The notes under the pieces: generated by a model
What the model was told of the DNA's origin: nothing
What the model saw: the letters and a program-made list of their open reading frames with translations, nothing else
Databases searched by the model: none
NCBI GenBank assembly: GCA_020846655.1
Contig: JADLDL010000299.1
Span: forward strand, 1 to 42,112
Length of the DNA stretch: 42,112 nt
Source: Saprospiraceae bacterium
Lineage (GTDB): Bacteria; Bacteroidota; Bacteroidia; Chitinophagales; Saprospiraceae
Direction of reading: 5' to 3'
Position numbers and translations under genes: made by a program
Shown: piece after piece, positions 2,513 through 40,814 of the stretch
How positions within the stretch are numbered: position 1 is the first letter of the stretch
How the letters are laid out: every line of letters begins with the position of its first letter

Positions 2513-2588
2513 AAGAAAATTTTAAACCAACCGTTTGAGGGAGTCATGCTGTCTTTGTAGGTAAATAGGTTCATCTAAATCATTTGCC

Positions 2589-3053: not shown

Positions 3054-3073
3054 CTCCGCGTCGGGTGGTCTTA

Positions 3074-3113
3074 ACAATACAGGCGTGCTGGTGGTCCGGC
3101 ACGCCTGTATTGT
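3074..3113 (+). terminator. Perfect 15-bp hairpin after the cysteine-rich lipoprotein gene
   Basis: ACAATACAGGCGTGC (3074-3088) is perfectly complementary to 3099-3113, with a 10-base loop, starting 21 bases after the stop. There is no T run behind it, so termination may be partial. It could also act as a 3' stabiliser. Confidence 0.65.
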
Positions 3114-3155
3114 GTTAAAGCCGTTTAACACAGGTTAAACCGTCGTTAAACCGCC
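3112..3155. repeat. 11-bp-phased GTTAAA repeats with an internal palindrome
   Basis: Four consecutive 11-base blocks (3112, 3123, 3134, 3145) each carry GTTAAA or GTTTAA near the start. The last two are nearly identical (GTTAAACCGTC and GTTAAACCGCC). The first two form a palindrome, GTGTTAAA and TTTAACAC, with a 4-base loop. It lies 90 bases upstream of the ATG at 3245. A spacing of one helical turn suggests protein binding, but this is inference. Confidence 0.5.
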
Positions 3156-8128: not shown

Positions 8129-11100
8129 ATGAAGCGATTACAAACAACCCTGATTCTGCTATTTGCGATAGCAGGATTAGCCATGGGCCAGCGCACCGTC
8201 GTTGGCACCGTGAAAGGCGACGATGGTGATGCACTCATCGGCGCCTCCGTCCGGGTAAAGGGCTCCAACGTGGGTGCCGTAACCGATGTCGACGGGAAAT
8301 ATTCCGTAGCCGTGCCTGCCGGCTCCACCACCCTGGTCATTATGTATACCGGGTATTCCACCAAAGAAGTTGAACTTGGCGCCTCCAATGTGGTGGACGT
8401 ACAGCTCGCTTCCGGTCAAGTGCTTCAGGAAGCCGTGGTAACGGCCATGGGTATCACCCGTTCGGAAAAAGCCCTTGGGTACACCGTTTCCAAGGTCGAC
8501 GGCTCTACCGTGACCGGTTCCGGGGAGGTCAATGCCATTCAGGCGCTGGCCGCGAAATCCTCAGGGGTACAGGTTATTGGCTCCGGCGGTACGCCGGGGG
8601 CCTCGTCCAAGATCCTGATCCGGGGCAACTCCTCGTTCCAGTTGGACAACCAGCCGCTGATCGTGATCGACAACATCCCGTACGACAACGCGGTCAACAC
8701 CGTGATCGGGGGCGACTATCCCTTCAACCCGAATTTGCAGGGGGTGAATGAATCGAACCGCGCCCTGGACATCAACCCGGACGACATTGAGAACATCTCC
8801 GTGTTGAAAGGGCCTTCCGCCAGTGCTTTGTATGGCACCCGGGCTGCCAACGGCGTCATCATGATCACCACCAAAAAAGGCGCAAAAGGCAAGTTGAAAG
8901 TAAGTTACAACGCCTCCTACAGCACCGACGAGGTGAACCGCCTGCCCGAGTTGCAACAACAGTACGGCCAGGGCGCCGGCGGCGGCGCTGCCGTGCGCGA
9001 TGCCAACAACGTGATAATCGGCAGCAACCCGGTCGGCAACCCGGGCACAGAAACGGCCAACAACTGGGGCCCGGCTATCACCGGACAAGCCTTCGACAAC
9101 CTGGACACGTATTTCCAGCGCGGCAAATCCATCAGCAACAATTTTTCGATTTCGGGTGGTAACGACAACACCACCTTCCGGTTCTCGTACGGCAATGCCA
9201 ACCAAACAGGTATTGTACCGAACACCGACCTGAAGCGCAATGCTTTCCGCATAAGCGCCACGACCGGGGTAGAAAAGTTCAAGGTGACGGTGAATGCTGC
9301 CTACACGACCATTCAGGACACGAAAGCACAAAACGGCAGCAACCTGTCGGGCGTCATGCTGGCCCTGACCCGTATGCCGGCCGACTTTGATGTGCTGGGC
9401 GGTACCGGTGCCAAAGGCTACGAAAACGCCGACGGCTCGCAGCACACCTATTTTTCTGCGTACGACAACCCCATGTGGTCGGCCTATCACAACCCGAACA
9501 CCTCTAACCTGGGCCGTTTCACCGCTTCCGTTGGGTTTGATTACATGCCCCTGGACTGGCTGACGTTTACCATGCGGATGGGCACGGACATGTACAACGA
9601 CAAACGCCGTCAAATCTGGGACATTGGCTCGCAAAACTTTGACCCGCGCGGCGAGGTTTGGGAATCCAACATTCGCCACGAAGAGTTGAACACCGACTTT
9701 CTGGCCCGGATCAACAAACGTTTTGGCGATATCTCCACCAGCATCACCCTGGGTTCGCAGTTGAACCACCGTTCGGACATCATCAACTTCGCACGGGGTT
9801 CTGTATTGGCTGCCGCCAACTACTACAACCTGAAAAATGCGTCGATTTTGTATGCCGACAACGACGAAAAAATCCGCCGCGTAGCCGGTGTGTTTGGAAC
9901 ATTGGACATTGGTTACAAAGACTTTATCTACCTGACCGTTGGCGCCCGCAACGACTGGGCATCTACGTTTGGGCCAAAAGCCAAAAACAGTTTCCTGTAC
10001 CCGAACGCGTCCTTGTCGTTTGTGCCCACCGAGTTGATGGAAAGCAGCGACATCTTGTCGTACCTGAAAATCCGCGCTTCGTTTGCACAAGCCGGCCGGG
10101 AGCCCTTGATTTACAGCTCGCGCACCTACTACGGCCGTCCGACCTTTACGGATGGCTTTACCAACGGTATCGGTTTTCCGTACCTGGGCCAGAATGGTTT
10201 TGTCATTGGCATCAGCAACCCGAATGTGTTGGGCAACGAAGTACTGCGCCCGGAAATCAACACCTCTTATGAGGCAGGTTTTGATATCCACCTGTGGAAA
10301 AGACGCGCACGCGCTGCCTTCACGTACTACCACTCCAAATCGACCGATTTGTTGATCCAACGGCCGATTGCCTCCACCTCGGGTTTTGCATTCTACACCA
10401 GCAATGCGGGTGAAATGGAGAACAAAGGTGTGGAAATTGACTTGGATGTAGACGTCGTGCGCAGCAAAGACTTCACCTGGACAGTAGGCGGCAATTTCAC
10501 CAGAAACCGCAACAAAGTACTCAAACTCGCTCCGGGTGTTGACCAGTTCAGCGTTGAAACGGCGTTTACCGGCATTAACCCCTTCGCCATTGTGGGCCAG
10601 CCCTACGGCGCGTTGTTCGGCTCCAAATGGGAACGCAACGACCAGGGACAACTCATCATCGGCGCCAACGGTTTGCCCTTGGTCAACCGCCAGGACAACT
10701 TCCTGGGCAACCCCTATCCGGACTACACCATCGCTGCGCGCAATACCTTCAAATTCAAAGGCCTGAGCCTCACCGCCCTGGTCGACATCCGCGAAGGCGG
10801 CGCTTTGTGGAACGGTACGTATGCGCGCCTCAACCGCATCGGCCGCACCCAGGAGTCGGCAGATGGTCGCGACAAATACTACATCATTGACGGGGTAAAA
10901 GCAGACGGTACCCCCAACGACATCCGCATCAGCGCGTTGCAGTACTTCTCCACGTTTAAAGGCGACGGCGGTGCATACGCCGTAGAAAATGCGATCCAGG
11001 ACGGCTCGTGGATCCGCCTGCGGGAAGTAACCCTGAACTATGATTTCCCGAAATTCGCTGACTTCATCGGTGGGCTGGGCATTTTTGTAACAGGCCGCAA

Positions 11101-11239
11101 CCTTTGGCTGAAAACGGACTACCAGGGAGTTGACCCGGAAACGAGCCTGACGGGCGCCGGTTCCAATACCGGTGGTTTCGATTATTTCAACATGCCGAAC
11201 ACCCGCTCGTTTATCGTCGGTTTGCGCGCCAACTTTTAA
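8129..11239 (+). CDS. SusC/RagA-family TonB-dependent outer-membrane transporter
   Basis: This 1036-residue protein is a complete SusC-like receptor. It begins with a signal peptide (1-20, cleaved before QRTVVG). A carboxypeptidase-regulatory-like beta sandwich follows (about 22-95), then a TonB-box region (EAVVTAMGIT, 101-110). The plug domain includes SKILIRGNSSFQLDNQPLIV and SVLKGPSASALYGTRAANG (about 115-250), and a 22-strand-type barrel ends in FIVGLRANF with the terminal aromatic needed for barrel assembly. It would import a large nutrient through the outer membrane using energy from the ExbB-ExbD-TonB complex, with its SusD partner as lid. The substrate is unknown because no glycoside hydrolase, peptidase or regulator is adjacent. 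It lacks an STN domain, so it is not an anti-sigma signalling receptor. The susD gene starts 24 bases after its stop. Confidence 0.95.
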   Translation: MKRLQTTLILLFAIAGLAMGQRTVVGTVKGDDGDALIGASVRVKGSNVGAVTDVDGKYSVAVPAGSTTLVIMYTGYSTKEVELGASNVVDVQLASGQVLQEAVVTAMGITRSEKALGYTVSKVDGSTVTGSGEVNAIQALAAKSSGVQVIGSGGTPGASSKILIRGNSSFQLDNQPLIVIDNIPYDNAVNTVIGGDYPFNPNLQGVNESNRALDINPDDIENISVLKGPSASALYGTRAANGVIMITTKKGAKGKLKVSYNASYSTDEVNRLPELQQQYGQGAGGGAAVRDANNVIIGSNPVGNPGTETANNWGPAITGQAFDNLDTYFQRGKSISNNFSISGGNDNTTFRFSYGNANQTGIVPNTDLKRNAFRISATTGVEKFKVTVNAAYTTIQDTKAQNGSNLSGVMLALTRMPADFDVLGGTGAKGYENADGSQHTYFSAYDNPMWSAYHNPNTSNLGRFTASVGFDYMPLDWLTFTMRMGTDMYNDKRRQIWDIGSQNFDPRGEVWESNIRHEELNTDFLARINKRFGDISTSITLGSQLNHRSDIINFARGSVLAAANYYNLKNASILYADNDEKIRRVAGVFGTLDIGYKDFIYLTVGARNDWASTFGPKAKNSFLYPNASLSFVPTELMESSDILSYLKIRASFAQAGREPLIYSSRTYYGRPTFTDGFTNGIGFPYLGQNGFVIGISNPNVLGNEVLRPEINTSYEAGFDIHLWKRRARAAFTYYHSKSTDLLIQRPIASTSGFAFYTSNAGEMENKGVEIDLDVDVVRSKDFTWTVGGNFTRNRNKVLKLAPGVDQFSVETAFTGINPFAIVGQPYGALFGSKWERNDQGQLIIGANGLPLVNRQDNFLGNPYPDYTIAARNTFKFKGLSLTALVDIREGGALWNGTYARLNRIGRTQESADGRDKYYIIDGVKADGTPNDIRISALQYFSTFKGDGGAYAVENAIQDGSWIRLREVTLNYDFPKFADFIGGLGIFVTGRNLWLKTDYQGVDPETSLTGAGSNTGGFDYFNMPNTRSFIVGLRANF

Positions 11240-11263
11240 TTTTTGACTCAAAATTTGTATTCA

Positions 11264-12625
11264 ATGAAAAAGATAATTGCTCTATATGCACTCCTGGCGC
11301 TGGTTATATTCCAGACCGGCTGCAAAAAATTTGTGGACGGATACGACGTATCGCCCAACGACCCGGCTGATGTAAACATCGAAGTCTTGTTGACCGGGGC
11401 GCAAGTAGCCACTTTCAGCAACTACACCGGCAACCTGGCCCGCCTGCCGGCGGTGTTGACCAATCAACTGGCCGGCCGGCAATTTCAGTTTGAAGATTTC
11501 CACCAATACATCATCCGGGAAACAGCCCTCGACAACGAGTTCCAGCAGCTGTACAACGGCGCGATGATCAACGCAGAGCAGTTGATCCTCAAAGCCGGCG
11601 ACGACAACAAGTACTACCGGGGCATTGGCCGGGTGATCAAGGCCATGAACCTGGGTCTGGCTACCGACATGTGGGGCGATGTACCGAACAGCGAAGCCCT
11701 GCGCGGGCTGGAGGGCGAAGCCCAGTTTAACCCGGCGTACGACGCCCAGGAAATCGTGCTGCGCGACATCCAGTCGAGCCTCGACCTGGCGATTCAGGAT
11801 TTCAACAGCGCGGATACCGACAACATCAAATTGCCCGGAGAAGACGACCTGATTTTTGGCGGCGACCCGGCACTGTGGCGCAATGCTGCCCGTATCCTGA
11901 AGGCACGCTATTACAACCGCCTGAGCAAACGCGATGCAGCTGGATCGGCCAATTCGGCGCTGGCTGTGCTGGACGAGGCCTACGCTGACGGCCTCAGCGG
12001 CAGCGGCGACGATATGATGGCGTATTTCGGTGAAGCAGCCAACGAGTGGAACCAATGGTATGCCTTCGAGCAGCAGCGCTCCGGTTACCTGACCATGAAC
12101 CAGTTTTTCCTTGACCAGTTGGTGGGCGACCCGCGGCTGCCGCTGTATGCCACCGCCAACGGCGACGGCAATTACGATGATCAGCAGCCCATCGGCCCGT
12201 ACTACAGCGGCCTTTCGTCCTCCTTGCCGCTGATTACTTATTTTGAGGCCAAGTTTATCGAGGCAGAAGCCGCGCTGCGCGCCAACAACAAAACGCGGGC
12301 CGCCTCGGCCTTCAATGATGCCGTAAAAGCCAACCTGGGCAAACTGGGCGTAGCCGACCCGGCTTACCTGGCGACCCACGCCAACGAAACCGACGCGACC
12401 ATCACGCTGGAAAAAATCATGACCCAGAAGTACCTGGCCATGTTTACCCAGCCGGAAGTGTGGGCCGACTGGCGCCGCACCAACCTGCCGGCGCTGACGC
12501 CCAATGCGGGCGCCACGCTGACGGCGATTCCGCGCCGGATTATTACGCCGCAAACCGAACGGTTGTACAACACCAAGGCCGTTGTCACGTCCGACATTCT
12601 GACACCGGTTTGGTGGGATAATTAA
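11264..12625 (+). CDS. SusD/RagB-family nutrient-binding outer-membrane lipoprotein
   Basis: This 453-residue lipoprotein is the surface lid of the SusC barrel encoded just upstream. The signal peptide ends at FQTGC (Cys20). The body has the SusD pattern: an N-terminal segment after CKKFVDGYDVSPNDP, a helical TPR-like core (GIGRVIKAMNLGLATDMWGDVPNSEAL about 122-148, with the recurring DMWGDVP/ALR motif), the segment ARILKARYYNRLS, and the C-terminal signature EKIMTQKYLAMFTQPEVWADWRRTN. It most resembles the SusD-like_2 subgroup. The frame is open to 11243, but MKK at 11264 gives the correct lipoprotein signal. A terminator follows. Confidence 0.93.
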   Translation: MKKIIALYALLALVIFQTGCKKFVDGYDVSPNDPADVNIEVLLTGAQVATFSNYTGNLARLPAVLTNQLAGRQFQFEDFHQYIIRETALDNEFQQLYNGAMINAEQLILKAGDDNKYYRGIGRVIKAMNLGLATDMWGDVPNSEALRGLEGEAQFNPAYDAQEIVLRDIQSSLDLAIQDFNSADTDNIKLPGEDDLIFGGDPALWRNAARILKARYYNRLSKRDAAGSANSALAVLDEAYADGLSGSGDDMMAYFGEAANEWNQWYAFEQQRSGYLTMNQFFLDQLVGDPRLPLYATANGDGNYDDQQPIGPYYSGLSSSLPLITYFEAKFIEAEAALRANNKTRAASAFNDAVKANLGKLGVADPAYLATHANETDATITLEKIMTQKYLAMFTQPEVWADWRRTNLPALTPNAGATLTAIPRRIITPQTERLYNTKAVVTSDILTPVWWDN

Positions 12626-12650
12626 GCTGTAAATTGTTTTTTAAACCTCT

Positions 12651-12689
12651 GAAGGCTGTCCGTTTCCAAACGGGCAGCCTTCTTTTTTT
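12651..12689 (+). terminator. Intrinsic terminator of the first susCD pair
   Basis: GAAGGCTG-TCCGTTT (12651-12665) pairs with 12668-12682 with one wobble, followed by seven T (12683-12689). It starts 26 bases after the susD stop. Confidence 0.9.
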
Positions 12690-13000
12690 GGAGTGGCTGC
12701 GGGGGCTGGGTTTGGGATAAAAAGCGGGCCAAAACAGAGAAATTTCGCCGGCATTTGCCACATTTCCCCCAGACCCTACTTTGCCATACCGGATTCTTGC
12801 AATGTCGCTTTTGTACCAGAATAAATTTCATGCGCAGCATATCTCGTCAAATTTTCAATACCTTTGCACAGTAAGCACCCGTTTTGCGTGGGTATTTAGC
12901 CAAAAAACATGCCCGGCAAGACATATTCCCCTACTGGATGAAAACCAGTTTTTGCTTGTAATCTGTCAACAAAATTATTTAACCAAATCTAACTTTTCGT
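12690..13000 (+). promoter_or_regulatory. Upstream region of the second susC with a -7 box
   Basis: No gene is visible here. An exact -7 box TACCTTTG lies at 12859-12866, which would start transcription near 12872 and leave a leader of about 130 bases. No good -33 TTTG precedes it. GCTTGTAATC (about 12954-12963) also occurs in the leader of the first susC (about 8034-8043), and the bases around both ATGs are nearly the same (GTATGAAGCGATTAC). The two leaders therefore share a remnant of common ancestry, but this one lacks the repeat-hairpin modules. Confidence 0.5.
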
Positions 13001-16000
13001 ATGAAGCGATTACTAACAACCATTTGGTTGGTGTTAGCTGTTGTGGGTTTTGCACTTGCACAGCGCACCGTAGTAGGTACGGTGAAAGGCGACGATGGAG
13101 AGCCCCTGATTGGCGCAACCGTTTCCGTAAAGGGAACGACTGGCGGCGGGCGCACTGACATCGAAGGCAAATACTCCGTACTTGTACCCGCGGGCTCCTC
13201 TGTGCTCGTATTTTCCTACACCGGCTATCAAAGTCAAGAAATTACGCTGGGCGCATCCAACGTAGTTGACTTGGTGCTGGCAGGTGGCATCCAACTGGGT
13301 GAAACCGTGGTAACCGCCCTGGGCGTTTCCCGCTACAAAAATGAACTGCCGTATTCTGCTCAAAAAGTAGGCGGCGAGGATGTGAGCAACGTCCGCAACC
13401 AGAACGTGGTGAACTCCCTGTCGGGTAAAGTAGCCGGTCTGGAAATCCGCCGCAACAACAACCTCGGCGGTTCCACCAACATCGTGCTGCGGGGTACCAA
13501 ATCGTTGACCAACGACAACCAGGCGTTGTTTGTGGTAGACGGTGTGCCTATCGACAACTCGAACACCAACGAAGCCGACCAACGTCGCGGCCGCCTTGGC
13601 TACGACTACGGCAACGCCGCTTCCGACATCAACTCCGACGACATTGAGTCGGTAACGGTGCTGAAAGGCGCCGCCGCTTCCGCTCTGTACGGTTCGCGCG
13701 CGTCCAACGGCGTAGTGATGATCACGACCAAAAAAGGCACCAAGAAAAAAGGTATCGGCATTTCCGTCAATTCGGGGATGAACTTTGGCAACTACGACAA
13801 ATCCACCTTCGTAGACATCCAGGACAAGTACGGCGCTGGCTACGGCCAGTTCTACGAAGACCCGTCCGGCTACTTCCTGTACCGCGACATCGACGAAAAC
13901 GGCACCGAAGACCTGGTGGTCACCACCAGTGAAGACGCTTCCTGGGGCCCTGCGTTCGACCCGAATTTGCAGGTATACCAGTGGGATGCCTTCGACGTTT
14001 CTTCGCCGAACTACGGCAAAGCCCGTCCTTGGGTAGCCGCTACCAACGGCCCGTCTTCCATTTTCGAAACCGCCGTCGGGATCAGCAACAGCATCATGAT
14101 TGATGGCAGTACCGAAAAAGGCTACTTCAAACTGGGCTACACCAAAAACACCGACAAGGGGATCATGCCGAACAGTAACATCGACAAAGACCTGATCAAC
14201 TTCGGTGCTTCGTACAACCTGACGGACAAACTGAATTTCTCTGCGTCGATCAACTACACCTCCACCGATGGTTTGGGCCGTTATGGCACGGGTTACGACT
14301 CGAAAAACCTGATGGGCAACTTCCGCCAGTGGTGGCAGACCAACGTAGACGTTCAGGAGATGCGCGCTGCCTATGAGCGCACCAAACAAAACATCACCTG
14401 GAACTGGGCTGACCCGACCGATTTGGCCCCCATTTACTGGGACAACCCCTACTGGACACGTTTCGAAAACTACCAGAACGACCACCGCAACCGCTACTTC
14501 GGCAACATCGCGCTGAACTACAAACTGACGAGCTGGCTGAACCTGATGGGCCGCGTTTCGCTCGACCAGTACGACGAAATCCAGGAAGAACGCATTGCTC
14601 TGGGCAGTATCGACGTTTCGGAATACTCCCGTTTCAACCGCAACTTCCGCGAGATGAACTACGACCTGCTGTTGGAAGTTCCGCAGATGAGCATCACGGA
14701 CGCGTTGAAATTTGACGCATTGATCGGTGGCAACGTTCGCAGAACGGATATTTCCTCCATCCGTGCACAAACCAACGGCGGCTTGGCGCTGCCGCGTTTG
14801 TATGCGCTCAGCAACTCGAAAAACGACCTGCAAGCACCGGCAGAAGCGGCTTCGCAACTGGAAGTGGATGGTATCTTTGGAAAAGTTGGCTTTGTGTACA
14901 ACCGTTGGGCGATTCTGGACCTCACGATCCGTCGTGACCGCGCCTCCTCGCTTCCGGAAGGCAACAACAGCTACATCTATCCTTCGGCATCCTTGGGTGT
15001 GATCTTCTCGGAATTCCTGGGCGACAACTCCTTTATCTCCTTCGGTAAAGCACGGGTCAACTACGCCTCTGTGAGTAACACAGCTCCTCCGCTGAGCGTT
15101 TATGACGTCTACAACGTCAATACGCCATTTGGCGATGCGTCCAATATCTCTTTGCCGGTAACGAAAAACAACTCCGATTTGAAACCGGAGTTCACCAACA
15201 GCCTGGAGGCCGGTTTGGAAATGCGTTTTGCCAAAGACCGCTTCGGCTTCGACGTAACGGTATACCAAACGAAAACGTATGACCAGATCATCCCGGTTGC
15301 CGTTTCGCGGGCTACGGGCTACAGCGCCAAATTCCTGAACATCGGCGAAGTTCAAAACAAAGGTGTGGAACTTTCCGCCTTCCTCCGTCCGGTACACACC
15401 CGCGACCTGAGCTGGCGCGTCGAATTGAACTGGGCCAGAAACCGCAACGAAGTGGTTGACCTGGGCGGCAGCATCGACAACCTCCAGTTGTCTTCCTCGC
15501 AAGGCGGTGTGAGCGTCAATGCGACTCTCGGCCAAGCCTACGGCACGATCCGCGGCAACAACTTCGTGTACAACGACAAAGGTGAAAAAGTTGTGGGCCC
15601 GAACGGCCGTTATCGCCTGAGCGCTACGTCCAACGAAGTGATCGGTAACGTAAACCCGGATTGGATCGGTGGTATCACCAACTCCCTGCGCTACAAAAAC
15701 ATCACCCTTGGCTTCCTGATCGACGTCAAACAAGGCGGCGACGTGTTCTCGCTCGATATGTACTACGGCTTGGCTACGGGTATCCCGGTTGAAACCGCTG
15801 GTAAAAACGACCTGGGCAACGACCTGCGCCTTCCACTCGACCAGGGTGGTGGCATCATCAACCCGGGTGTAAAAGACGATGGCACACCGAACGACATCCG
15901 TATCGCTGCTACCGACTTTGGTGTATTCGGCTACCGCCGCAAACCGGCTGCTGCGTTCATCTACGATGCCAGCTTCGTGAAACTGCGTGAAGTAAACCTG

Positions 16001-16213
16001 TCCTGGGACCTGCCCAGCACCCTCTTGGGCAACAACCGCATTTTCAAAGGCGTCACCTTGGGCGTATATGGCCGCAACCTGTGGATCATCCACAAAAACT
16101 TGCCCTATGCTGATCCGGAAGATGGACTTTCCTCCGGCAACGTACAAGGCTATCAAGCGGGTAGCTACCCGACTGTTCGCACCTTCGGTGCCAACCTTAA
16201 TTTAAAATTCTAA
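13001..16213 (+). CDS. SusC/RagA-family TonB-dependent outer-membrane transporter (second copy)
   Basis: This is a 1070-residue SusC-like receptor with signal peptide (1-20), regulatory-like beta sandwich (22-95), TonB-box region (ETVVTALGVS, 101-110), plug (NIVLRGTKSLTNDNQALFVV; SVTVLKGAAASALYGSRASNG) and a barrel ending in GANLNLKF. The first 110 residues align with the other SusC without gaps and are very similar (QRTVVGTVKGDDG is identical). The barrel differs strongly, as expected for paralogs with different ligands. It is paired with the SusD-like gene 18 bases downstream. The predicted role is TonB-powered uptake of an unknown, probably oligomeric, nutrient. No substrate-processing enzyme is encoded nearby. 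Confidence 0.95.
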   Translation: MKRLLTTIWLVLAVVGFALAQRTVVGTVKGDDGEPLIGATVSVKGTTGGGRTDIEGKYSVLVPAGSSVLVFSYTGYQSQEITLGASNVVDLVLAGGIQLGETVVTALGVSRYKNELPYSAQKVGGEDVSNVRNQNVVNSLSGKVAGLEIRRNNNLGGSTNIVLRGTKSLTNDNQALFVVDGVPIDNSNTNEADQRRGRLGYDYGNAASDINSDDIESVTVLKGAAASALYGSRASNGVVMITTKKGTKKKGIGISVNSGMNFGNYDKSTFVDIQDKYGAGYGQFYEDPSGYFLYRDIDENGTEDLVVTTSEDASWGPAFDPNLQVYQWDAFDVSSPNYGKARPWVAATNGPSSIFETAVGISNSIMIDGSTEKGYFKLGYTKNTDKGIMPNSNIDKDLINFGASYNLTDKLNFSASINYTSTDGLGRYGTGYDSKNLMGNFRQWWQTNVDVQEMRAAYERTKQNITWNWADPTDLAPIYWDNPYWTRFENYQNDHRNRYFGNIALNYKLTSWLNLMGRVSLDQYDEIQEERIALGSIDVSEYSRFNRNFREMNYDLLLEVPQMSITDALKFDALIGGNVRRTDISSIRAQTNGGLALPRLYALSNSKNDLQAPAEAASQLEVDGIFGKVGFVYNRWAILDLTIRRDRASSLPEGNNSYIYPSASLGVIFSEFLGDNSFISFGKARVNYASVSNTAPPLSVYDVYNVNTPFGDASNISLPVTKNNSDLKPEFTNSLEAGLEMRFAKDRFGFDVTVYQTKTYDQIIPVAVSRATGYSAKFLNIGEVQNKGVELSAFLRPVHTRDLSWRVELNWARNRNEVVDLGGSIDNLQLSSSQGGVSVNATLGQAYGTIRGNNFVYNDKGEKVVGPNGRYRLSATSNEVIGNVNPDWIGGITNSLRYKNITLGFLIDVKQGGDVFSLDMYYGLATGIPVETAGKNDLGNDLRLPLDQGGGIINPGVKDDGTPNDIRIAATDFGVFGYRRKPAAAFIYDASFVKLREVNLSWDLPSTLLGNNRIFKGVTLGVYGRNLWIIHKNLPYADPEDGLSSGNVQGYQAGSYPTVRTFGANLNLKF

Positions 16214-16231
16214 CCCAATAGAATATAGCAC

Positions 16232-17659
16232 ATGAAAAAGATACTATTTCTTCTAATGCTCGCTGGCTTGGCCTTTTCCTGCAGTAAGGACTTTACGGAC
16301 CTGAACACGGACAAGAAAAAGCCCTCTGCGGTACCGCCGGGCGGTTTGTTTGCCAACGCGCAAAAATCGCTGGTCGACGTGATGACCACACCCAACGTCA
16401 ACACCAATATCTTCCGCTTGCTGTCCCAAAACTGGGCGCAATGCACCTACATCGACGAGTCGAACTACGACCTGACGACCCGGAACATTCCGCAGAATTT
16501 CTGGAATACGATGTACCTCAACGTGCTGAAAAGCCTGGATGAAAGCAAACTCCTCATCCCGACGGAGTTCCAGGTCCCAGCAGTGTATGCCAACCAAGAG
16601 GCTTGCATCGAAATCCTGAATGTTTATGCGTACAGCACCCTGGTCAACACCTTCGGTGACATTCCGTACAGCGAAGCCCTGGATTCCCGTAATCTGGTAC
16701 CGAAATACGACGATGCTGCCACGATCTACAACGATTTGGCTACCCGCCTGGACGCTGCCCTCAACTCCATCGACGAAAGTCAGGGTGGTTTCGGCAGCAG
16801 CGACCTGTTCTACGGTGGCGACATGGCCGGTTGGAAAACTTTCGGCAACTCGCTCAAACTCCGTATGGGTCTGATGCTGGCCGACGTGGATGCCGCCAAA
16901 GCCAAAACGATGGTAGAAGCCGCCGCTCCGGGCGTAATCTCCTCGAACAGCGAAAACGTAGTACTGCACTACCTCGACGCACCGCCGAATACCAATCCGG
17001 TTTGGGTGGACCTCGTGCAAAGCGGCCGGAAAGACTTCGTGGCTGCCAATACGATCGTTGATTTCATGAACGGATTGAATGACCCGCGTGTACCGCTGTA
17101 TTTCTCCACCGACGCCAGCGGCGCTGCTTATGTAGGCGGCCCTTATGGCTCGAACAACAACTTTGCTACCTTCTCAAAACCGGCTGATGCCATTCAGGCC
17201 CCCTCTTTCGAAGCACTGTTGCTGGACTACTCGGAAGTGGAATTCCTGCTGGCTGAAGCCGCTGCCCGTGGCATGAACGTGGGTGGCACTGCTGCCGAGC
17301 ACTATGAAGCCGCTATCCGCGCTTCCATCGAATACTGGGGTGGCGCCACGGCAGATGCCGACGCATACCTGGCCAAACCGGAGGTTGCTTATGCTACCGC
17401 CGCCGGCGCCTGGAACCAGAAAATCGGCAACCAGAAGTGGATTGCACTGTTCAACCGCGGTTTCGAAGGTTGGACCGAATGGCGCCGCCTGGACTTCCCG
17501 ATCCTCAACGTTCCGGACGGTTTGACCTATGCCGACATCCCGGTGCGCTACACGTACCCGGTACAGGAGCAAAACCTGAATACGACGAACTACAATGCCG
17601 CTGCAACTGCTGTAGGTGGCGACAAAGTGAGCACCAAATTGTTCTGGGATAAAAACTAA
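16232..17659 (+). CDS. SusD/RagB-family nutrient-binding outer-membrane lipoprotein (second copy)
   Basis: This 475-residue SusD-like_2 type lipoprotein has its lipobox at LAFSC (Cys17). It keeps the subgroup's features: the early segment DLNTDKKKPSAVPPGGLFANAQKSL with its LFANA element, AYSTLVNTFGDIPYSEALD (about 130-148), YNDLATRLDAALNSI, DMAGWKTFGNSLKLRMGL and the C-terminal GFEGWTEWRRLDFP before the last third. It forms the lid of the preceding SusC. Compared with the SusD at 11264 it shares the fold and layout but little direct sequence, so each pair probably binds its own ligand. A strong terminator ends the unit. Confidence 0.94.
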   Translation: MKKILFLLMLAGLAFSCSKDFTDLNTDKKKPSAVPPGGLFANAQKSLVDVMTTPNVNTNIFRLLSQNWAQCTYIDESNYDLTTRNIPQNFWNTMYLNVLKSLDESKLLIPTEFQVPAVYANQEACIEILNVYAYSTLVNTFGDIPYSEALDSRNLVPKYDDAATIYNDLATRLDAALNSIDESQGGFGSSDLFYGGDMAGWKTFGNSLKLRMGLMLADVDAAKAKTMVEAAAPGVISSNSENVVLHYLDAPPNTNPVWVDLVQSGRKDFVAANTIVDFMNGLNDPRVPLYFSTDASGAAYVGGPYGSNNNFATFSKPADAIQAPSFEALLLDYSEVEFLLAEAAARGMNVGGTAAEHYEAAIRASIEYWGGATADADAYLAKPEVAYATAAGAWNQKIGNQKWIALFNRGFEGWTEWRRLDFPILNVPDGLTYADIPVRYTYPVQEQNLNTTNYNAAATAVGGDKVSTKLFWDKN

Positions 17660-34443: not shown

Positions 34444-35319
34444 ATGAAACAACGGGCCATTACGGCATTATTTTTTGTGGCGGCCATGATCGGTGGCGTG
34501 TTTGGCGGCCGGGAATCGTTTTTTGTGCTGTTCAGCCTGATCGCCGCCGGCGCCTTGTGGGAGTTTTGGGACTTGCTGCTCGGGCCGGAAGTGCCGCAGC
34601 GCCTGTTCAGAAAAACGGTAGGGCTGCTGGCGGGGCTGGTGCCAGTGTTGTGGTGGGGCTTTTGGGTGCTGTTTGACGACGCTTGTGGGCAGGCCAGCGC
34701 CGGGGCAATGGCGGAGCCGCATTGGCAAACCCAATTGAACCTGGGCGCCGGCGTGGTGCTGCTGGAATTGTTTCTGGTACTGGGCTTGCTGTTGTTTGAG
34801 TTGTTTGCCGCTGCGCCAAAACCGTTTCAAAACACGGGCATCCTGGGGCTCGGCTTTTTTTACATTGTGTTGCCGGTCCTTTTGTTGTTTGCGCTGGCTA
34901 CGCCGGCTTGCACGTACCAGCCGGGCCGGGTATTCGGCTTGATGGGGCTGGTTTGGGTGAACGATACCCTGGCGTACCTGATTGGCTCCCGGTTTGGCAA
35001 AACCAAGTTGTTTGAGCGCATTTCACCCAAAAAAACCTGGGAAGGCACACTCGGCGGCGGGCTCTGCACCGTGCTGATTGCCTGGGGCCTGGCGCAGTAC
35101 AGCGGCGCCTACTCCACCGCACAATGGCTGGCCCTGGGTGTGGTGATCAGTATTTTTGGCAACCTGGGCGACCTGATCGAAAGCATGCTGAAGCGCAGCG
35201 TGGGCGTCAAGGATTCGGGCAGCCTGTTTCCGGGGCATGGCGGGTTTCTCGACCGTTTCGATGCGTTTTTGTTTATGCTGCCCTTTGCGTGGGCGGTGGT
35301 GACGCTGCTGGGCGGCTGA
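34444..35319 (+). CDS. cdsA: Phosphatidate cytidylyltransferase
   Basis: This 291-residue inner-membrane enzyme makes CDP-diacylglycerol from phosphatidic acid and CTP, the branch point for phospholipid synthesis. It has about eight TM helices. The CDP-alcohol-forming signature is complete at the C-terminus: ISPKKTWEGTLGGGL (about 192-206), FGNLGDLIESMLKRSVGVKDSGSLFPGHGGFLDRFDAF (about 236-273), with Asp, Lys-Asp and the PGHGG-DR-D residues that bind two metals and CTP. It starts 27 bases after the DUF457-like gene. Its final 47 bases overlap the end of the convergent pnuC gene. Confidence 0.95.
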   Translation: MKQRAITALFFVAAMIGGVFGGRESFFVLFSLIAAGALWEFWDLLLGPEVPQRLFRKTVGLLAGLVPVLWWGFWVLFDDACGQASAGAMAEPHWQTQLNLGAGVVLLELFLVLGLLLFELFAAAPKPFQNTGILGLGFFYIVLPVLLLFALATPACTYQPGRVFGLMGLVWVNDTLAYLIGSRFGKTKLFERISPKKTWEGTLGGGLCTVLIAWGLAQYSGAYSTAQWLALGVVISIFGNLGDLIESMLKRSVGVKDSGSLFPGHGGFLDRFDAFLFMLPFAWAVVTLLGG

Positions 35320-35914
35320 GTTTTTTCCGCCACTCGATATAGCCCAGCACGGCCAGCACCAGAAAAACGGCGTACTGAAAGCCGGTGAACACGAAGCCTT
35401 TGATAAAATAAAGGGGGATGGATGCGGTGTTGGTGAGGATCCACCACAGCCAGTTTTCGAGTTTTTTGCGGGTCATGAGCCACATGCCGGTGTAGGCGGC
35501 AGCGGAGGCGAAGGCGTCGGCCAGGGGCACGGTGCTGTTGGTCCAGACGCGAAGAATCCAGTAGAGGAGCAGCCAGCAGGCGCCAAAGAAGCTCAGGCTG
35601 AGCAACCATTCGCGGCGGCTGGAGCGGCTGATCCGAAGGGCGTTTTGCCCGTTTTTTTTCGAGGCCCACATCATCCAGCCGATGATACTCATGATGGTGT
35701 AGTAAAAATTCACCCCGGCCTCGGCGTAGAGGCCCGCCACAAAACTCAGGTAGATATAAATGGTGGTGTTGACCAGCCCGGTGGGGTACACCCAAATGTG
35801 TTCGAGCCGCGAAAAAATGACGCTGGCGATGCCGAAAAAGACGGCCAGAAACTCCAGCCAGGTGGTGGCCAGCAGGCCTTGGATCAATTGCTGCCAGAAT
35901 TCTGCCAGGGACAT
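35273..35914 (-). CDS. pnuC: Nicotinamide riboside transporter PnuC
   Basis: This 213-residue protein has seven TM helices. It carries the family pattern: LEFLAVFFGIASVIFSRLEHIWVYPTGLVNTTIYIYLSF (about 20-58; WVYPTG is characteristic), the G-x-x-L/Y-A-E-A-x-x-N-FYY element (about 61-72), IGWMMW, and WWILTNTASIPLYFIKG near the end with the NR-binding Trp/Asn residues. PnuC carries nicotinamide riboside across the inner membrane by facilitated diffusion for NAD synthesis. No THI-box or NAD riboswitch is visible upstream. It ends inside the last 47 bases of cdsA. A TATTTTTG box is 38 bases upstream of its ATG. Confidence 0.94.
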   Translation of the reverse strand: MSLAEFWQQLIQGLLATTWLEFLAVFFGIASVIFSRLEHIWVYPTGLVNTTIYIYLSFVAGLYAEAGVNFYYTIMSIIGWMMWASKKNGQNALRISRSSRREWLLSLSFFGACWLLLYWILRVWTNSTVPLADAFASAAAYTGMWLMTRKKLENWLWWILTNTASIPLYFIKGFVFTGFQYAVFLVLAVLGYIEWRKKLSRPAASPPPTQRAA

Positions 35915-35959: not shown

Positions 35960-35963
35960 GCAA

Positions 35964-35995
35964 AGCCTTCCGCTGCTCCAAGGCAACGGAAGGCT
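35964..35995 (-). terminator. Hairpin terminator after the double-glycine peptide gene
   Basis: AGCCTTCCG (35964-35972) pairs perfectly with 35987-35995 around a 14-base loop. It lies 24 bases after the peptide's stop and is followed on the minus strand by a T-rich stretch (TTTGCTATTTTTG). Confidence 0.7.
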
Positions 35996-36018
35996 CTGAA
36001 ATGGCATATCAATAGGGC

Positions 36019-36228
36019 TTATTGCGGAATAGTTTCTCCGCAACTCGAATTCCAATTGAATACCGAACTAAATGCTTTGGACCCACTCTTACCGCCCTCC
36101 ACACGAACCATCTCGTCTTTTTCCAAAACAGTCATTGTTTGCTGTAGAGAATCGAGTTGACTTTTCGTGTTGTCCGGCTGTTCTTTCTTGGTGGGTTCGT
36201 TCGTCTTTTTAGAAAAAAATGGAAACAT
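36019..36228 (-). CDS. Double-glycine leader peptide (putative RiPP/secreted peptide precursor)
   Basis: This 69-residue peptide has a charged N-terminal part (MFPFFSKKTNEPTKKEQ) and then a canonical double-glycine leader end, TVLEKDEMVRVEGG (residues 33-46). It fits the L-x-x-x-E-M/L-x-x-V-x-G-G pattern cleaved by C39 peptidase-type exporters. The remaining 23 residues would be the mature peptide: they start KSGSKAFSS, contain one Cys (CGET) and are rich in Ser/Thr. A promoter match (TTG, 19 bases, TACCTTTG) and a hairpin terminator flank the gene, so it is a self-contained unit. No modification enzyme or exporter is encoded in the window. The role is unknown: bacteriocin, lanthipeptide-like product or signal are all possible. 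Confidence 0.72.
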   Translation of the reverse strand: MFPFFSKKTNEPTKKEQPDNTKSQLDSLQQTMTVLEKDEMVRVEGGKSGSKAFSSVFNWNSSCGETIPQ

Positions 36229-36256: not shown

Positions 36257-36286
36257 CAAAGGTATGGTCTTTTTCCGAATCGTCAA
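36257..36286 (-). promoter_or_regulatory. Promoter of the double-glycine peptide gene
   Basis: On the minus strand, TTG (36286-36284), 19 bases, then TACCTTTG (36264-36257). The -7 box is an exact match and the spacing is right. Transcription would start near 36251, 23 bases before the ATG. Confidence 0.6.
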
Positions 36287-36347
36287 GGATGCGGTCGGTT
36301 TTTTGTAGGATAGGCGTCAAAATTAATGTGAACGGTAGCCTGAGGCG

Positions 36348-36355: not shown

Positions 36356-36478
36356 TACAAATACCAGTACACTGTTCATCTGGGTCTGAACAGGTTTCAG
36401 TCAGGCTTTTTCCCTGCTGAGCGTGTTTTTTTTTCGCAACAATACTTCTTCATCTTACTTTCAGCCAATCAAATGGTT

Positions 36479-37072
36479 ATGAAACATTTTATTGTCTGTG
36501 TATTGTGCGGCCTGACCGTGCTGATTATGTCGGCTTTCGGAATCCTGGAATTTGATGCAGCAAATTTCGGGCCAGGGGGGCCGGATGTTTATCAGTGTAC
36601 CACCGGTTCGATCCAGTTCAAATCAGAGGCACCGCTCGAACTCATCGAAGCCCGCAGCACCCAATTGCTCGGCGCCATCAACCCCGCCAACCAAACCTTT
36701 GCCTGGTCCGTCGATGTCCTCAGTTTTTCAGGGTTCAACAGCACGCTCCAACGCGAACATTTCAACGAAAACTACCTGGAAAGCGGCCGCTACCCCAAAG
36801 CCACGTTTGCCGGAAAAATTATTGAAAAAATAGACTTCGAAAAAGACGGCGTCTACTCCGTTCGGGCGAAAGGTAAACTGAACGTACACGGCGTGGAACA
36901 AGAGCGGATTATCAAAGGGCAACTGGAACGCAAGGGCCGAAAACTACACATCAGCGCCTCGTTCTCCGTTCCTTTGACCGATCACAACATCACCGTACCC
37001 AAGATTGTATACCAGAAAATTGCACAGGAAATCCTGATTACCGTGGATGCCGACCTGGTCCTCAAGCCCTGA
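36479..37072 (+). CDS. YceI-family periplasmic protein
   Basis: This 197-residue protein has an N-terminal signal or anchor (MKHFIVCVLCGLTVLIMSAFG). The lipocalin-like YceI fold follows: TTGSIQFKSEAPLELIEARSTQLLGAINPANQTFAWSVDVLSF, then REHFNENYLESGRYPKATFAGKI (the H-F-x-x-x-Y-F/L-x-x-x-x-Y/F-P family hallmark), GKLNVHGVEQERIIKGQLERKG, and LTDHNITVPKIVYQKIAQEILITVDADL. YceI proteins hold isoprenoid or amphiphilic ligands in the periplasm. MVM at 36473 is an alternative start, and the frame is open to 36353 without need. It lies between the divergent double-glycine peptide and the sensor kinase, whose TTG start comes 47 bases after its stop. Confidence 0.88.
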   Translation: MKHFIVCVLCGLTVLIMSAFGILEFDAANFGPGGPDVYQCTTGSIQFKSEAPLELIEARSTQLLGAINPANQTFAWSVDVLSFSGFNSTLQREHFNENYLESGRYPKATFAGKIIEKIDFEKDGVYSVRAKGKLNVHGVEQERIIKGQLERKGRKLHISASFSVPLTDHNITVPKIVYQKIAQEILITVDADLVLKP

Positions 37073-37119: not shown

Positions 37120-40011
37120 TTGATCAAAAAAAGTTTACATATCATCCTTTTTTTACTGTGCAGCAGCCATTGGCTCGCCGCACAAACGCCCTTTTTTCGG
37201 CAGAAAACCCGGAAAGAACTGTATGGAACGCACATGCGGGCCATTTTTCAGGATCACCTGGGGTGGATTTGGCTGGGTGGAAAAGGGGGCTTGTTTCGCT
37301 ACGACGGACAGAGTTTCCAGCCTGTTCCACTGCCCGATTCGCTGGCCAAAGACCCAATCCGCAGCCTGTACGAAACGAAAGGCCAACTTTGGGTTGGTTT
37401 CGAAAGCGGTTCCATTTGCATCTTGCCCAAAAACACCGTTTTTCTTCCCGAGTCGCCCCAGGAAACCCGGAATGCCAACCCCAGCCAATCGCCCCTCCAA
37501 CGCTGGATACCGGAAGAGGGCAACCCCAGGAGCCCGATCACCGGTTTTTGCGCCACCCCCAACGGCGATTTCTGGATCTCAACCTACGGAGAAGGCCTCT
37601 ATTGTTGGAAAAACGAGCGCCTGTACCAATTTAATACCGACGACGGGCTGGCCAGTACCGATATTTATACCATCAGTTGCGACAGCCAGGGGCAAATCTG
37701 GACCGCCACCGATGCCGGAATCAGCATTTGCTCCATGCCGGAGCCCGGCAAAAAGAAGATCCGCAACATCACTACGGCCGATGGCCTGCCCGACGAAATC
37801 GTATCCGCGCTTCGGGTAGACGCAGCGGGCGACATGTGGATCGGGATGTATGAAAAAGGCATTTGCCGCTATAAAACCGCCCAGCAATCTTTCGATTTTC
37901 CGGTCTCCGGCTGGACGCATGGCCCGGTCACCAGCCTCGTTTCTTTTGGTAGCCAGGAAATATGGGCCGGCACCGCCAACCACGGCCTGATTCGAATTGA
38001 CCTGCAAAACCCTGCATCAACCGCCGACCGCTGCCAACCCCTACCCGAGCAACACCCGCTTTGCCATGAAAAAATAACAGCCCTTTGCAAAGACCGCGAA
38101 GGCTTGTTGTGGGTCTTGGAAAACGAAGGCGCCATTTATTCCGCCAACATCCGGATCGGGCTGCTAGCCACCCCCTCGCGCGAGATCCAGGCTGTTTGTG
38201 TGGATCGGCTGGGCCGGCTTTGGGCGGGCACAGAACAAGGCTTGATGGTGCAGGAAAACGGCCAATTTCGGCAGGCCCTGCCCCTTCAGGAAAATATCAT
38301 TTCGCTTTGGGAAGCCTCCGATGGCAATATCTGGGCGGGCTCCTTTGGCAATGGAGTGTTCGTGCTCCACCCCGAAGGCCGGGTATTGCGCCACCTTACT
38401 GAAAAAAACGGCCTGACCAATGGCAGCGTATTGTCCATCACCGGGCATGCCGGAACAGTATGGCTCGCCACGCTGGGCGGCGTCACGGAAGTTAACCAAA
38501 ACAATTATTCACTGCGCACCTACCAAGCTGAACTCGGTGCCGGGTATATCTACGCGATACTGGCCGACAGCAAGGGCCGGATTTGGTTTGGCACCGATGG
38601 CGAAGGCCTGATCGTTTTGGAAAACGGCGCGTTCCGGCACATTCGCCAGGCTGCCAACCGGTATTTGAAAACGGTCTATGGCATCGTGGAAGACCGCGCC
38701 GGCAACATCTGGTTTTCGACCGAAGGGGACGGCTTGTTTTGTTATACGGGCCAAAATTTTCGACAGTACAGCACAGAGCATCACCTGCACAGCCTGAATA
38801 TTACGGGCCTGGCCGTCGACGGCAATGAACATATTGTACTGGCTTATGAAGACGGGATTGATATCCTGACGCCCGGCACCGGCCATGTGGCTTTTTTTGA
38901 TGCTGCCAGCGGGGCGCCTGCGGCAAAAGCCGCTTTTAATTCGATTTGCCGCGACCGCAATGGCCATGTCTGGATGGGTGCCGAAGAAGGGATTTTGCGC
39001 CTGGCTACATTTGATGAGGCTTTTGTGTTCGACCCCGAGCCCAATATTACCGCTGTATCGGTGTTTTTGCAGCCGGTTGATTTTTGGACGACCACCGTAT
39101 TTCCGCACGACCAGAACTATTTTGTTTTCAATTTTGTCGGCCTCTGGTTTACCAACCCCGAACTGGTGCGATACCGGTACCGGCTCGATGGCTCGGACGC
39201 CGATTGGGTGATCTCCAAAGAGCACTTTGCCTCCTATCCCAACCTGCCGCCGGGGCAATACACCTTTCGCCTGCAAACCAGCGAACACGGCGATTTCAGC
39301 GGCACCCCCGAAATCACCTATTCGTTCACGATCCGGCAACCCATTTGGAAGCAGCTGTGGTTTGTTGTCCTGAGCCTGTTGATCGCCACCGGGCTGTTGT
39401 TTTCATTTATCCGGAGCCGCGAAAAGCGCTTTCACCGGGAAGCCGCGCTGCGCCGGGAATCGGTAGAGTCGCAATTTGCTGCCCTGAAAAGCCAGATCAA
39501 CCCGCATTTTCTGTTCAACAGTTTTAATACCCTGATCACGATCATCGAGGAAAATCCCAAAATGGCCGTCGAATACGTGGAGCATTTTTCCGATTTCTAC
39601 CGAACCATCCTGGACTACCGGGAAAAAGACCTCATTACCCTCAGCGAAGAACTGGCCCTCGTCCGCAATTTCAATTTCCTGCTCCAAAAACGCTACGAAG
39701 AAAATTTCAGGCTCAACTGTATCCCGGACGGTCAACCCGGGTATATCATGCCGCTCACGCTCCAGATTTTGGTGGAAAATGCCGTCAAACACAACGTTAT
39801 TTCCCGCGCCAAACCCCTGACGGTCGATATATTTGTAGAAGACGGCGGGTATTTGGTGGTGCGCAACAACAACCAACGCAAAATCAAACCCGAGCCCGGC
39901 ACACACTTCGGCTTGCACAGCCTGGTGCATCGCTACCAACTATTGGGCGCCAAACCCGTCATTGTCGAAGATACCGAAACCTCTTTTACAGTAAAAGTCC
40001 CCATCCTGTAA
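37120..40011 (+). CDS. LytS-type sensor histidine kinase with periplasmic two-component propeller
   Basis: This 963-residue membrane kinase has a signal peptide (about 2-22, cleaved after LAAQ). Repeats of the Reg_prop type, each with a DxxGxxWxGT-like core, follow (e.g. DHLGWIWLGGKGGLFRYDG, DSQGQIWTATDAGISI, DSKGRIWFGTDGEGLIVL, DRAGNIWFSTEGDGLFCY), forming a periplasmic beta-propeller pair to about residue 635. Next come a Y_Y_Y domain (about 650-740), one TM (about 744-765), and the His_kinase domain with His796 in SQINPHFLFNSFNTL. The ATP-binding N box is LTLQILVENAVKHN. There is no DNA-binding domain, so it signals through the LytTR regulator encoded 44 bases downstream. The only start that includes the signal peptide is TTG at 37120; no ATG or GTG lies just upstream in frame. 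Confidence 0.92.
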   Translation: MIKKSLHIILFLLCSSHWLAAQTPFFRQKTRKELYGTHMRAIFQDHLGWIWLGGKGGLFRYDGQSFQPVPLPDSLAKDPIRSLYETKGQLWVGFESGSICILPKNTVFLPESPQETRNANPSQSPLQRWIPEEGNPRSPITGFCATPNGDFWISTYGEGLYCWKNERLYQFNTDDGLASTDIYTISCDSQGQIWTATDAGISICSMPEPGKKKIRNITTADGLPDEIVSALRVDAAGDMWIGMYEKGICRYKTAQQSFDFPVSGWTHGPVTSLVSFGSQEIWAGTANHGLIRIDLQNPASTADRCQPLPEQHPLCHEKITALCKDREGLLWVLENEGAIYSANIRIGLLATPSREIQAVCVDRLGRLWAGTEQGLMVQENGQFRQALPLQENIISLWEASDGNIWAGSFGNGVFVLHPEGRVLRHLTEKNGLTNGSVLSITGHAGTVWLATLGGVTEVNQNNYSLRTYQAELGAGYIYAILADSKGRIWFGTDGEGLIVLENGAFRHIRQAANRYLKTVYGIVEDRAGNIWFSTEGDGLFCYTGQNFRQYSTEHHLHSLNITGLAVDGNEHIVLAYEDGIDILTPGTGHVAFFDAASGAPAAKAAFNSICRDRNGHVWMGAEEGILRLATFDEAFVFDPEPNITAVSVFLQPVDFWTTTVFPHDQNYFVFNFVGLWFTNPELVRYRYRLDGSDADWVISKEHFASYPNLPPGQYTFRLQTSEHGDFSGTPEITYSFTIRQPIWKQLWFVVLSLLIATGLLFSFIRSREKRFHREAALRRESVESQFAALKSQINPHFLFNSFNTLITIIEENPKMAVEYVEHFSDFYRTILDYREKDLITLSEELALVRNFNFLLQKRYEENFRLNCIPDGQPGYIMPLTLQILVENAVKHNVISRAKPLTVDIFVEDGGYLVVRNNNQRKIKPEPGTHFGLHSLVHRYQLLGAKPVIVEDTETSFTVKVPIL

Positions 40012-40055
40012 CCATCCCCCATCGGCTTCCCGATCAACAACACAAACAATTTGCT

Positions 40056-40814
40056 ATGAATGTCATTATCATCGAAGACGAAAACGCCGCCGCCCGGCGC
40101 CTGGAAAAACTCCTGAAGGAAGTAGCCCCGGAAACGATCGTCCTCCAGCAACTGGATAGCGTGGAAACATCCGTGCTCTGGCTACAAAACAACCCACAGC
40201 CAGATTTAATTTTTATGGATATCCACCTGGCAGACGGCGCGAGTTTTGAAATCCTGCAACACGTCCCGATCAAATGCCCGGTCATTTTTACCACCGCCTA
40301 CGACGAATATGCCTTGCAGGCCTTCAAAGTCAACGCCGTCGACTACCTGCTCAAACCCATCAAAAGCACCGAACTGACGGCTGCCCTGGAGAAATACCGC
40401 GACGTGTTCCGCGCGCCGGTGTCCGACTACAGCTCGCTACTCGAGACCCTGCGCCGGCAGGAAGGTATGCAACGTATGCTCATCCGCCTGGGGCAAAGCA
40501 TGAAACTCATCGATCTCTCGGATGCCGCCTATTTTTATACAAAAGACAAAATCACCTTTGTCATTCTTCGCAACAGCGGCAAACGTTATCCGGTGGAGTA
40601 TCCGCTGGACCGGCTGGAAAATATGCTGGACAAACGTGCCTTTTTCCGCATCAACCGGCAATTTATCGTGAATGTCGCCGCCATTCGCGAAATGCACCCC
40701 TACTCCAAACGCCGGGTAAAAATAGACCTGGACCCCGCCACCGATATGGAAACCATCGTGAGTACCGAACGCTCCGCAGAGTTTAAAAAATGGCTGGTCG
40801 GTGAAAATGTTTGA
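40056..40814 (+). CDS. LytTR-family response regulator
   Basis: This 252-residue cytosolic regulator has an N-terminal receiver domain (about 1-120) with the acidic pair EDE (7-9), phospho-acceptor Asp55 (LIFMDIHLADG), Thr80 (FTTAY) and Lys100 (DYLLKPI). The C-terminal LytTR DNA-binding domain (about 146-250) contains FYTKDKITFVILRNSGKRYPVEYPLDRLENML, FFRINRQFIVNVAAIREMHPY and STERSAEFKKWL. It is the cognate partner of the kinase directly upstream. LytTR regulators bind short direct repeats upstream of their targets; none could be assigned here. Confidence 0.95.
   Translation: MNVIIIEDENAAARRLEKLLKEVAPETIVLQQLDSVETSVLWLQNNPQPDLIFMDIHLADGASFEILQHVPIKCPVIFTTAYDEYALQAFKVNAVDYLLKPIKSTELTAALEKYRDVFRAPVSDYSSLLETLRRQEGMQRMLIRLGQSMKLIDLSDAAYFYTKDKITFVILRNSGKRYPVEYPLDRLENMLDKRAFFRINRQFIVNVAAIREMHPYSKRRVKIDLDPATDMETIVSTERSAEFKKWLVGENV

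Follow-up and report, generated by a model that had tools for sequence, protein, structure and literature searches.

Most known cases of peptide quorum sensing are from Gram-positive bacteria. In the ComC/ComD/ComE and Blp systems of streptococci, a peptide with a double-glycine (GG) leader and a C39 exporter are combined with a histidine kinase, which is a membrane receptor, and a LytTR response regulator. The RRNPP systems (Rap-Phr, NprR, PlcR), which the consulted passages of PMC13220807 describe for Gram-positives, pair a small peptide with a cytosolic tetratricopeptide repeat (TPR) protein. Two groups of GG peptides of the Bacteroidota are also related. According to the relevant passages of PMC10352776, the clusters for ribosomally synthesised and post-translationally modified peptides (RiPPs) of Bacteroidales include GG precursors near histidine kinase/response regulator or TPR genes, together with a transporter and enzymes, several of them radical SAM (rSAM)-like; signalling is suggested there for some of these precursors, so the idea has a forerunner, and the words 'LytTR' and 'Saprosp' are both absent from the portion of that text considered. 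The bacteroidetocins (PMC6671954, in the part used here) are GG peptides with a C39-type transporter, described as 42-aa toxins with four cysteines encoded in a four-gene region, in a text from which 'histidine kinase' is absent.

We analysed a stretch of 42,112 nucleotides from a Saprospiraceae bacterium (assembly GCA_020846655.1, contig JADLDL010000299.1; the whole stretch is called the window), focusing on a 69-aa open reading frame (ORF) with an ATG start on the minus strand (36019-36228, stop codon included), which encodes a GG-leader peptide. Its product would be the precursor of a peptide that the cell secretes as a signal: an ABC exporter with a C39 peptidase domain, most likely a C39 and HlyD pair encoded elsewhere in the genome, would recognise the leader; cleavage after GG would release for export a peptide of about 23 aa; a soluble histidine kinase with TPRs would read the conserved free C-terminus of this peptide, which would be re-imported or act before export; and the kinase would pass phosphate to a LytTR response regulator controlling target genes, so that the peptide may report cell density. 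We give this whole reading (C39-exported signal, cytosolic TPR kinase, LytTR regulator) a probability of roughly 0.6. Its parts differ in strength: the product is very probably an exported GG peptide, with cleavage and export predicted from the leader; it probably works with the TPR kinase and the LytTR regulator, through a proposed interaction of kinase and peptide; the chances that it is a true signal between cells are evenly balanced; and that the TPR domain binds the imported peptide directly is put forward tentatively.

Compared with the streptococcal systems, the components are alike, but the kinase is apparently soluble and carries TPRs, the exporter is encoded elsewhere in the loci seen, and the host is Gram-negative. 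Like the RRNPP systems, the proposed system would rely on a cytosolic TPR protein and a small peptide, and the kinase TPRs match Rap and NprR; here, however, the TPR region is fused to a histidine kinase (His_kinase, HATPase) and not to a DNA-binding or phosphatase function, and the peptide has a GG leader. As far as our searches show, the system joins two known halves not found together in the literature searched: a C39-exported GG peptide, and a cytosolic TPR receptor-kinase with LytTR output. The open-licence literature, preprints excluded, yielded no report of such a signalling system in this group, and with slightly less than even confidence we suggest a Saprospiraceae peptide quorum-sensing system that would be the first of its kind in Bacteroidota in that literature.

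A regulator-peptide-kinase gene set in Saprospiraceae

The evidence for partner genes comes from other genera. A profile built from the genus alignment of the peptide (A1, 30 members) gave 36 hits in 150 genomes of the family, 33 of them outside the genus of the window, and there the gene order recurred on one strand: LytTR response regulator, then peptide, then kinase. The profile misses divergent members (36 of the 150 genomes, fewer than those carrying the regulator, which was found in 79/150 at E<=1e-55). The 73 loci examined were of two kinds, 33 chosen by a profile hit and 40 by the regulator where the profile gave none. A regulator was present in 69 (the fetched stretches of L063, L065, L082 and L086 had none), and of these 69, 60 had the peptide, 52 the kinase (a lower bound, because some fetched stretches end early) and 50 both in order. 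A peptide was called when a small GG ORF lay downstream on the same strand and ended in P[QLSHR], IQQ or LNQ. Among the profile-chosen loci 29/33 had a regulator, all 29 with a peptide; among those chosen by the regulator without a profile hit, the peptide was found in 31/40. Strong regulator matches at five further places (G072:C6, G052:C205, G148:C267, G057:C72, G111:C78) lie outside this set.

The 60/69 compares with 1/69 on the reverse strand, 0.5/69 in dinucleotide shuffles and 0/67 in a same-strand stretch further down. When the ending was not required the figures became 62/69 versus 22 (reverse strand), 20.2 (shuffles) and 8/67 (further down), a much weaker contrast, so that most of the signal comes from the ending. 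Aligning 46/61 triad peptides with 10/30 genus peptides (A2, 56 sequences) gave the consensus MGKxKKxLxDLKKDLKxLxKxDMxKIxGGK...WxNGCGGIxPQ, with core ends such as ...CGGIVPQ and ...GGTIPL; the window peptide, ending in ...NWNSSCGETIPQ, fits it. The ordered triad is present in the isolates Neolewinella agarilytica DSM 24740, N. aurantiaca SSH13, N. litorea HSMS-39 and Lewinella sp. W8, and if the reading is true, the presence of a conserved set of signal, receptor and regulator in cultivated Neolewinella and Lewinella would open peptide communication in Bacteroidota to direct tests. Regulator carriers were mostly recorded as Saprospiraceae, the others only as Bacteroidetes/Bacteroidota, Chitinophagales, Saprospirales, Lewinellaceae, Lewinella and Phaeodactylibacter. 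In a phylum sample of 395 genomes, holding few genomes of the family, three matched: the genome of the window, a second member of the family, and G378, where the GG peptide matched is Cys-rich, lacks the P-Q end and is unrelated. At one triad locus (L180, in G086) regulator and kinase flank a tandem of two GG peptides that differ from each other (2584-3125); the signal gene may have been duplicated there.

Within the genus of the window, peptide homologues were found in 37/42 genomes at E<=0.0034 (38 matched at E<=1; the G012 match, at E 0.34 and with an internal stop, was left out), usually as one copy per genome and with a conserved core. The closest are those of G041 (88% identity) and G025 (87%). 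The initial annotation had recognised a C39-type double-glycine leader at residues 33-46, and this assignment stands: the motif TVLEKDEMVRVEGG (36091-36132, minus strand) has L at -12, E at -8, M at -7 and V at -4 before the GG, after which the cut is predicted, and the hydrophobic residues at -4, -7 and -12 (V, M and L) agree with the criterion for C39/PCAT leaders. In the genus alignment the GG is invariant, L, I, V, M or F occupies -4, -7 and -12 in 30/30 members (49/56 in A2), and -8 is E or D in 27/30; the residue pattern of the window peptide and of the genus members fits C39 recognition as set out in the relevant part of PMC6363468. The predicted mature peptide, KSGSKAFSSVFNWNSSCGETIPQ (23 aa, 36022-36090, minus strand), shares the conserved C-terminal end in both alignments: core length is 22-24 aa in 30/30 genus members, 29/30 end in (S/T)-x-G-x-T-I-P-(L/Q) (L026 ends in STPGGNVPS instead), and the final two residues are PQ, PL or PS in all 30. 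Random sequence after the GG, a condition under which the initial annotation would have fallen, was not seen: the C-terminal end is conserved. In 17 pairs, picked by hand, the ratio of nonsynonymous to synonymous polymorphism (pN/pS) was 0.15 for the N-terminal part, 0.07 for the leader and 0.08 for the core; by these ratios, purifying selection acts on leader and core alike.

A bacteriocin or other antimicrobial peptide under two-component control would fit the C39 export and the weak leader matches to bacteriocin models (for the window peptide, 13.2 bits to Pfam Bacteriocin_IIc, cut-off 27.1, and 15.5 to NCBIfam BLP_Lacticasei, cut-off 40), but we regard it as improbable: there is usually a single copy per genome with a conserved core, the core is without the four cysteines of the bacteroidetocins in the part of PMC6671954 used, and no obvious immunity gene, and likewise no maturase and no C39 gene, was found by Pfam scan of 20 proteins encoded around six triad loci; these comprised DoxX, a FAD-dependent protein, an ion channel, other housekeeping proteins and, once, a TPR-AraC regulator. 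For the window peptide no curated bacteriocin family model reached its cut-off. The proposal of the initial annotation that the peptide may belong to an uncharacterised class is supported. The ComC models matched weakly (NCBIfam 3/56 members, best E 0.0062; Pfam 2/56, best E 0.0085; the window peptide had no match), and PADLOC gave no match for the peptide.

The same neighbourhoods speak to modification, which the initial annotation had implied, together with a role for a single Cys. That the peptide is a RiPP precursor on which a distant maturase acts in trans would be compatible with signalling, and the TIGR04149 model of rSAM-modified RiPPs matches 15/56 members (best E 1.9e-4; one score shown is 19 bits, the cut-off being 25), while enzymes of the lanthipeptide and grasp-with-spasm types are encoded elsewhere in the genome of the window. 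These enzymes, however, sit with their own precursors, a Cys is present in only 7/30 genus members, and no maturase was found among the 20 triad neighbours or the scanned proteins of the window, so that neither proposal was borne out and modification in trans appears very improbable.

Regulator, kinase and exporter

The initial annotation had missed the connection with a LytTR regulator and a TPR histidine kinase, and this connection points to signalling. Both triad regulators scanned (2/2) consist of Response_reg and LytTR domains, and 11 regulators, including the orthologue from the genome of the window, were aligned. All five kinases scanned have TPRs in the first ~390 residues followed by His_kinase and HATPase domains (the HATPase_c of the L090 kinase is below cut-off). 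No membrane segment was found by hydropathy in six kinases (best 19-aa mean 1.43), and since no hydrophobic segment is present in these six, the TPR kinase is most likely cytosolic. An AlphaFold model, made with a 48-sequence alignment (A4) kept by score and length, has helical repeats, a long helix and the kinase (mean pLDDT 87.4, pTM 0.63); Foldseek ranked designed TPRs and LGN at the top, followed by the GanS kinase (6swj, E 2e-9), Rap with its pheromone (8rsv, E 7e-9) and NprR (5dbk, E 3e-8), and in the sequence profile Rap proteins are among many TPR matches. The likeness of the modelled structure to Rap and NprR agrees with peptide binding by the kinase and does not prove it.

An apparently soluble kinase would require no import step if the small protein were an intracellular regulator of the TPR kinase, with C39 export merely removing the peptide in a timer or export-sensing circuit, and the gene order regulator-peptide-kinase would suit this as well. 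We consider it unlikely: the leader motif and the core end are both strongly constrained, and an intracellular role explains both only if export belongs to the circuit.

In the genus of the window the three genes lie apart. The regulator is present in 39/42 genomes (E<=1e-50, 45-53% identity; those of G003 and G020 are fragments), the copy in the genome of the window being at G000:C292:1666-2427 with 53% identity. At 19 genus regulator loci mltD, ftsY or both lie beside the regulator, and kinase and peptide were not found there. The kinase is present over most of its length in 37/42 genomes, including G041 and G025, which have the closest peptides; of 20 genus kinase loci, the four examined have neither regulator nor peptide adjoining it. 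Peptide, regulator and kinase are all absent from G013. In the genomes compared, the three genes are clustered in the other genera that have them, and in the genus of the window they have moved apart yet been kept; these separately kept loci show how an apparent orphan peptide gains partners through relatives.

The exporter would act in trans, as first proposed for this peptide. A C39 match is present in 42/42 genus genomes, and 19 of the 21 genomes with exactly one also have the peptide. Neither exporter nor maturase had been seen in the 42 kb, and the Pfam scan of 31 window proteins (the peptide, with a single sub-threshold match, included; smaller ORFs outside the scan; 8/31 without a match) detected no maturase; three C39 genes were found elsewhere in the genome, all on contigs outside the window, which bears out service in trans. 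The C131 exporter sits with a TIGR03891 biosynthesis protein (above cut-off) and a precursor just below the class I lanthipeptide cut-off: this locus (L042, G000:C131, 1276-9372) comprises the C39 exporter, the thiopeptide-type TIGR03891 protein and a 59-aa Cys-rich GG precursor. The second (L043, G000:C114, 8473-16302) is a grasp-with-spasm cluster with a C39 exporter, an 83-aa GG peptide, a TIGR04192 ATP-grasp protein and a TIGR04193 SPASM protein (both above cut-offs), and an HlyD-type protein. The third, C4, has C39, ABC membrane and ATPase domains, is paired with HlyD, and no GG peptide was found within the 19 kb around it. Since two of the three exporters belong to other RiPP clusters, the orphan C4 exporter with HlyD is left as the likely partner, and this pair is most likely the exporter of the peptide. 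The C4 exporter is 71-82% identical to exporters in all five other genus genomes compared, three of which have HlyD after it, while the three copies in the genome of the window are mutually 47-55% identical.

Across the family, C39 was found in 71/72 genomes with the regulator (E<=1e-70) and in 22/78 without it (Fisher 9e-22, shared ancestry ignored); the figures were 74/79 versus 19/71 at 1e-55 and 68/69 versus 25/81 at 1e-80. The sole exception at E<=1e-70 is G051 (87% complete), which has no C39 exporter; its regulator and kinase genes (L174) are separated by 18 bp, with no peptide between them.

Transcription signals and the balance of evidence

The gene had been described as a separate transcription unit, and the predicted signals agree. 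The promoter (36257-36286, minus strand) consists of TTG (36284-36286), 19 bp and TACCTTTG (36257-36264), and TTG-N19/20-TACCTTT is present in 28/30 genus loci. A promoter pattern gave 7 sites in the genome of the window, of which 2 lie in the window, at the peptide promoter and in the terminator stretch, and the reversed pattern gave none. Downstream, an intrinsic terminator hairpin (35961-35998, minus strand) has perfect 9-bp arms and folds as RNA into a 16-bp stem of -28.6 kcal/mol, equalled by 0/200 shuffles; a perfect stem of >=8 bp within 110 nt past the stop codon occurs in 29/30 genus loci versus 0.7 expected, and the hairpin is kept while its sequence varies (21 different arm sequences). 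Taken with the selection estimates, these predictions indicate that the peptide gene is real, constrained and equipped with transcription signals of its own.

Directly upstream of the TTG lies a conserved block (36287-36316, minus strand), a candidate activator (LytTR-like) site. Its genus consensus, built on 25/30 loci (16 after removal of near-duplicates, with one, L018, wrongly anchored), contains GACCGTTCCCTT and GACCGTTTTCTT as a direct repeat whose period is about 20 bp. Direct repeats of similar period are bound by LytTR proteins. Repeats spaced by 21 bp were found in 6/30 genus loci versus 1.2 expected, the loci being related, and a promoter matrix (of which the window sequence is part) gave a single above-threshold site in the 42 kb, at this block. 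The upstream repeat is a hint of regulation and no proof of autoinduction.

Several observations count against a C39-exported signal read by the TPR kinase. The promoter repeat is not evident in the triads (6/60 versus 2.8 expected), and the promoter matrix found no above-threshold site near the regulator (19 loci), the exporter (8) or the kinase (20), at a sensitivity that also missed the G004 peptide promoter in L044. Among regulator loci 9/69 are without the peptide, and L193 (G119) has regulator and kinase, with C39 elsewhere, and no peptide was found. The kinase is absent from the 398-contig draft of the window's own genome, where an assembly gap and a true loss are both possible. The three genes are scattered in the genus and some genomes keep only part of the set: of the three genes G030 keeps the peptide alone; G025 lacks only the regulator; G009, G012 and G018 (the last with a stop in the kinase frame) have regulator and kinase and no convincing peptide, as does G005, whose assembly is 79% complete. 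The TPR matches of the kinase are generic, with designed TPRs and LGN best structurally. Finally, C39 also occurs in 22/78 regulator-free genomes, and its co-occurrence with the regulator takes no account of phylogeny.

Neighbouring genes in the window

The peptide gene lies between pnuC (35273-35914, minus strand) and a YceI-domain gene (36476-37072, plus strand); a plasmid search with 501 bp around it gave no match. The YceI gene is followed, at 37120-40814, by a histidine kinase of the propeller type (Reg_prop, Y_Y_Y) and by a LytTR regulator. This adjoining pair could itself be the receptor pair in the lineage of the window, which would be compatible with peptide signalling: it lies about 1 kb from the peptide, divergently, and has LytTR output. 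We hold this to be highly improbable, given that YceI, the head of the propeller block, lies divergently beside the peptide in only 11/36 genus loci besides the window (some loci end nearby), and that the orthologue of the triad regulator lies at another locus than the propeller pair; because the genus does not have this neighbourhood in common, the pair is not the first choice as partner. Further off, at 8129-17659, the window carries two tandem pairs, each of a TonB-plug protein with a CarboxypepD_reg domain and a SusD-like protein.
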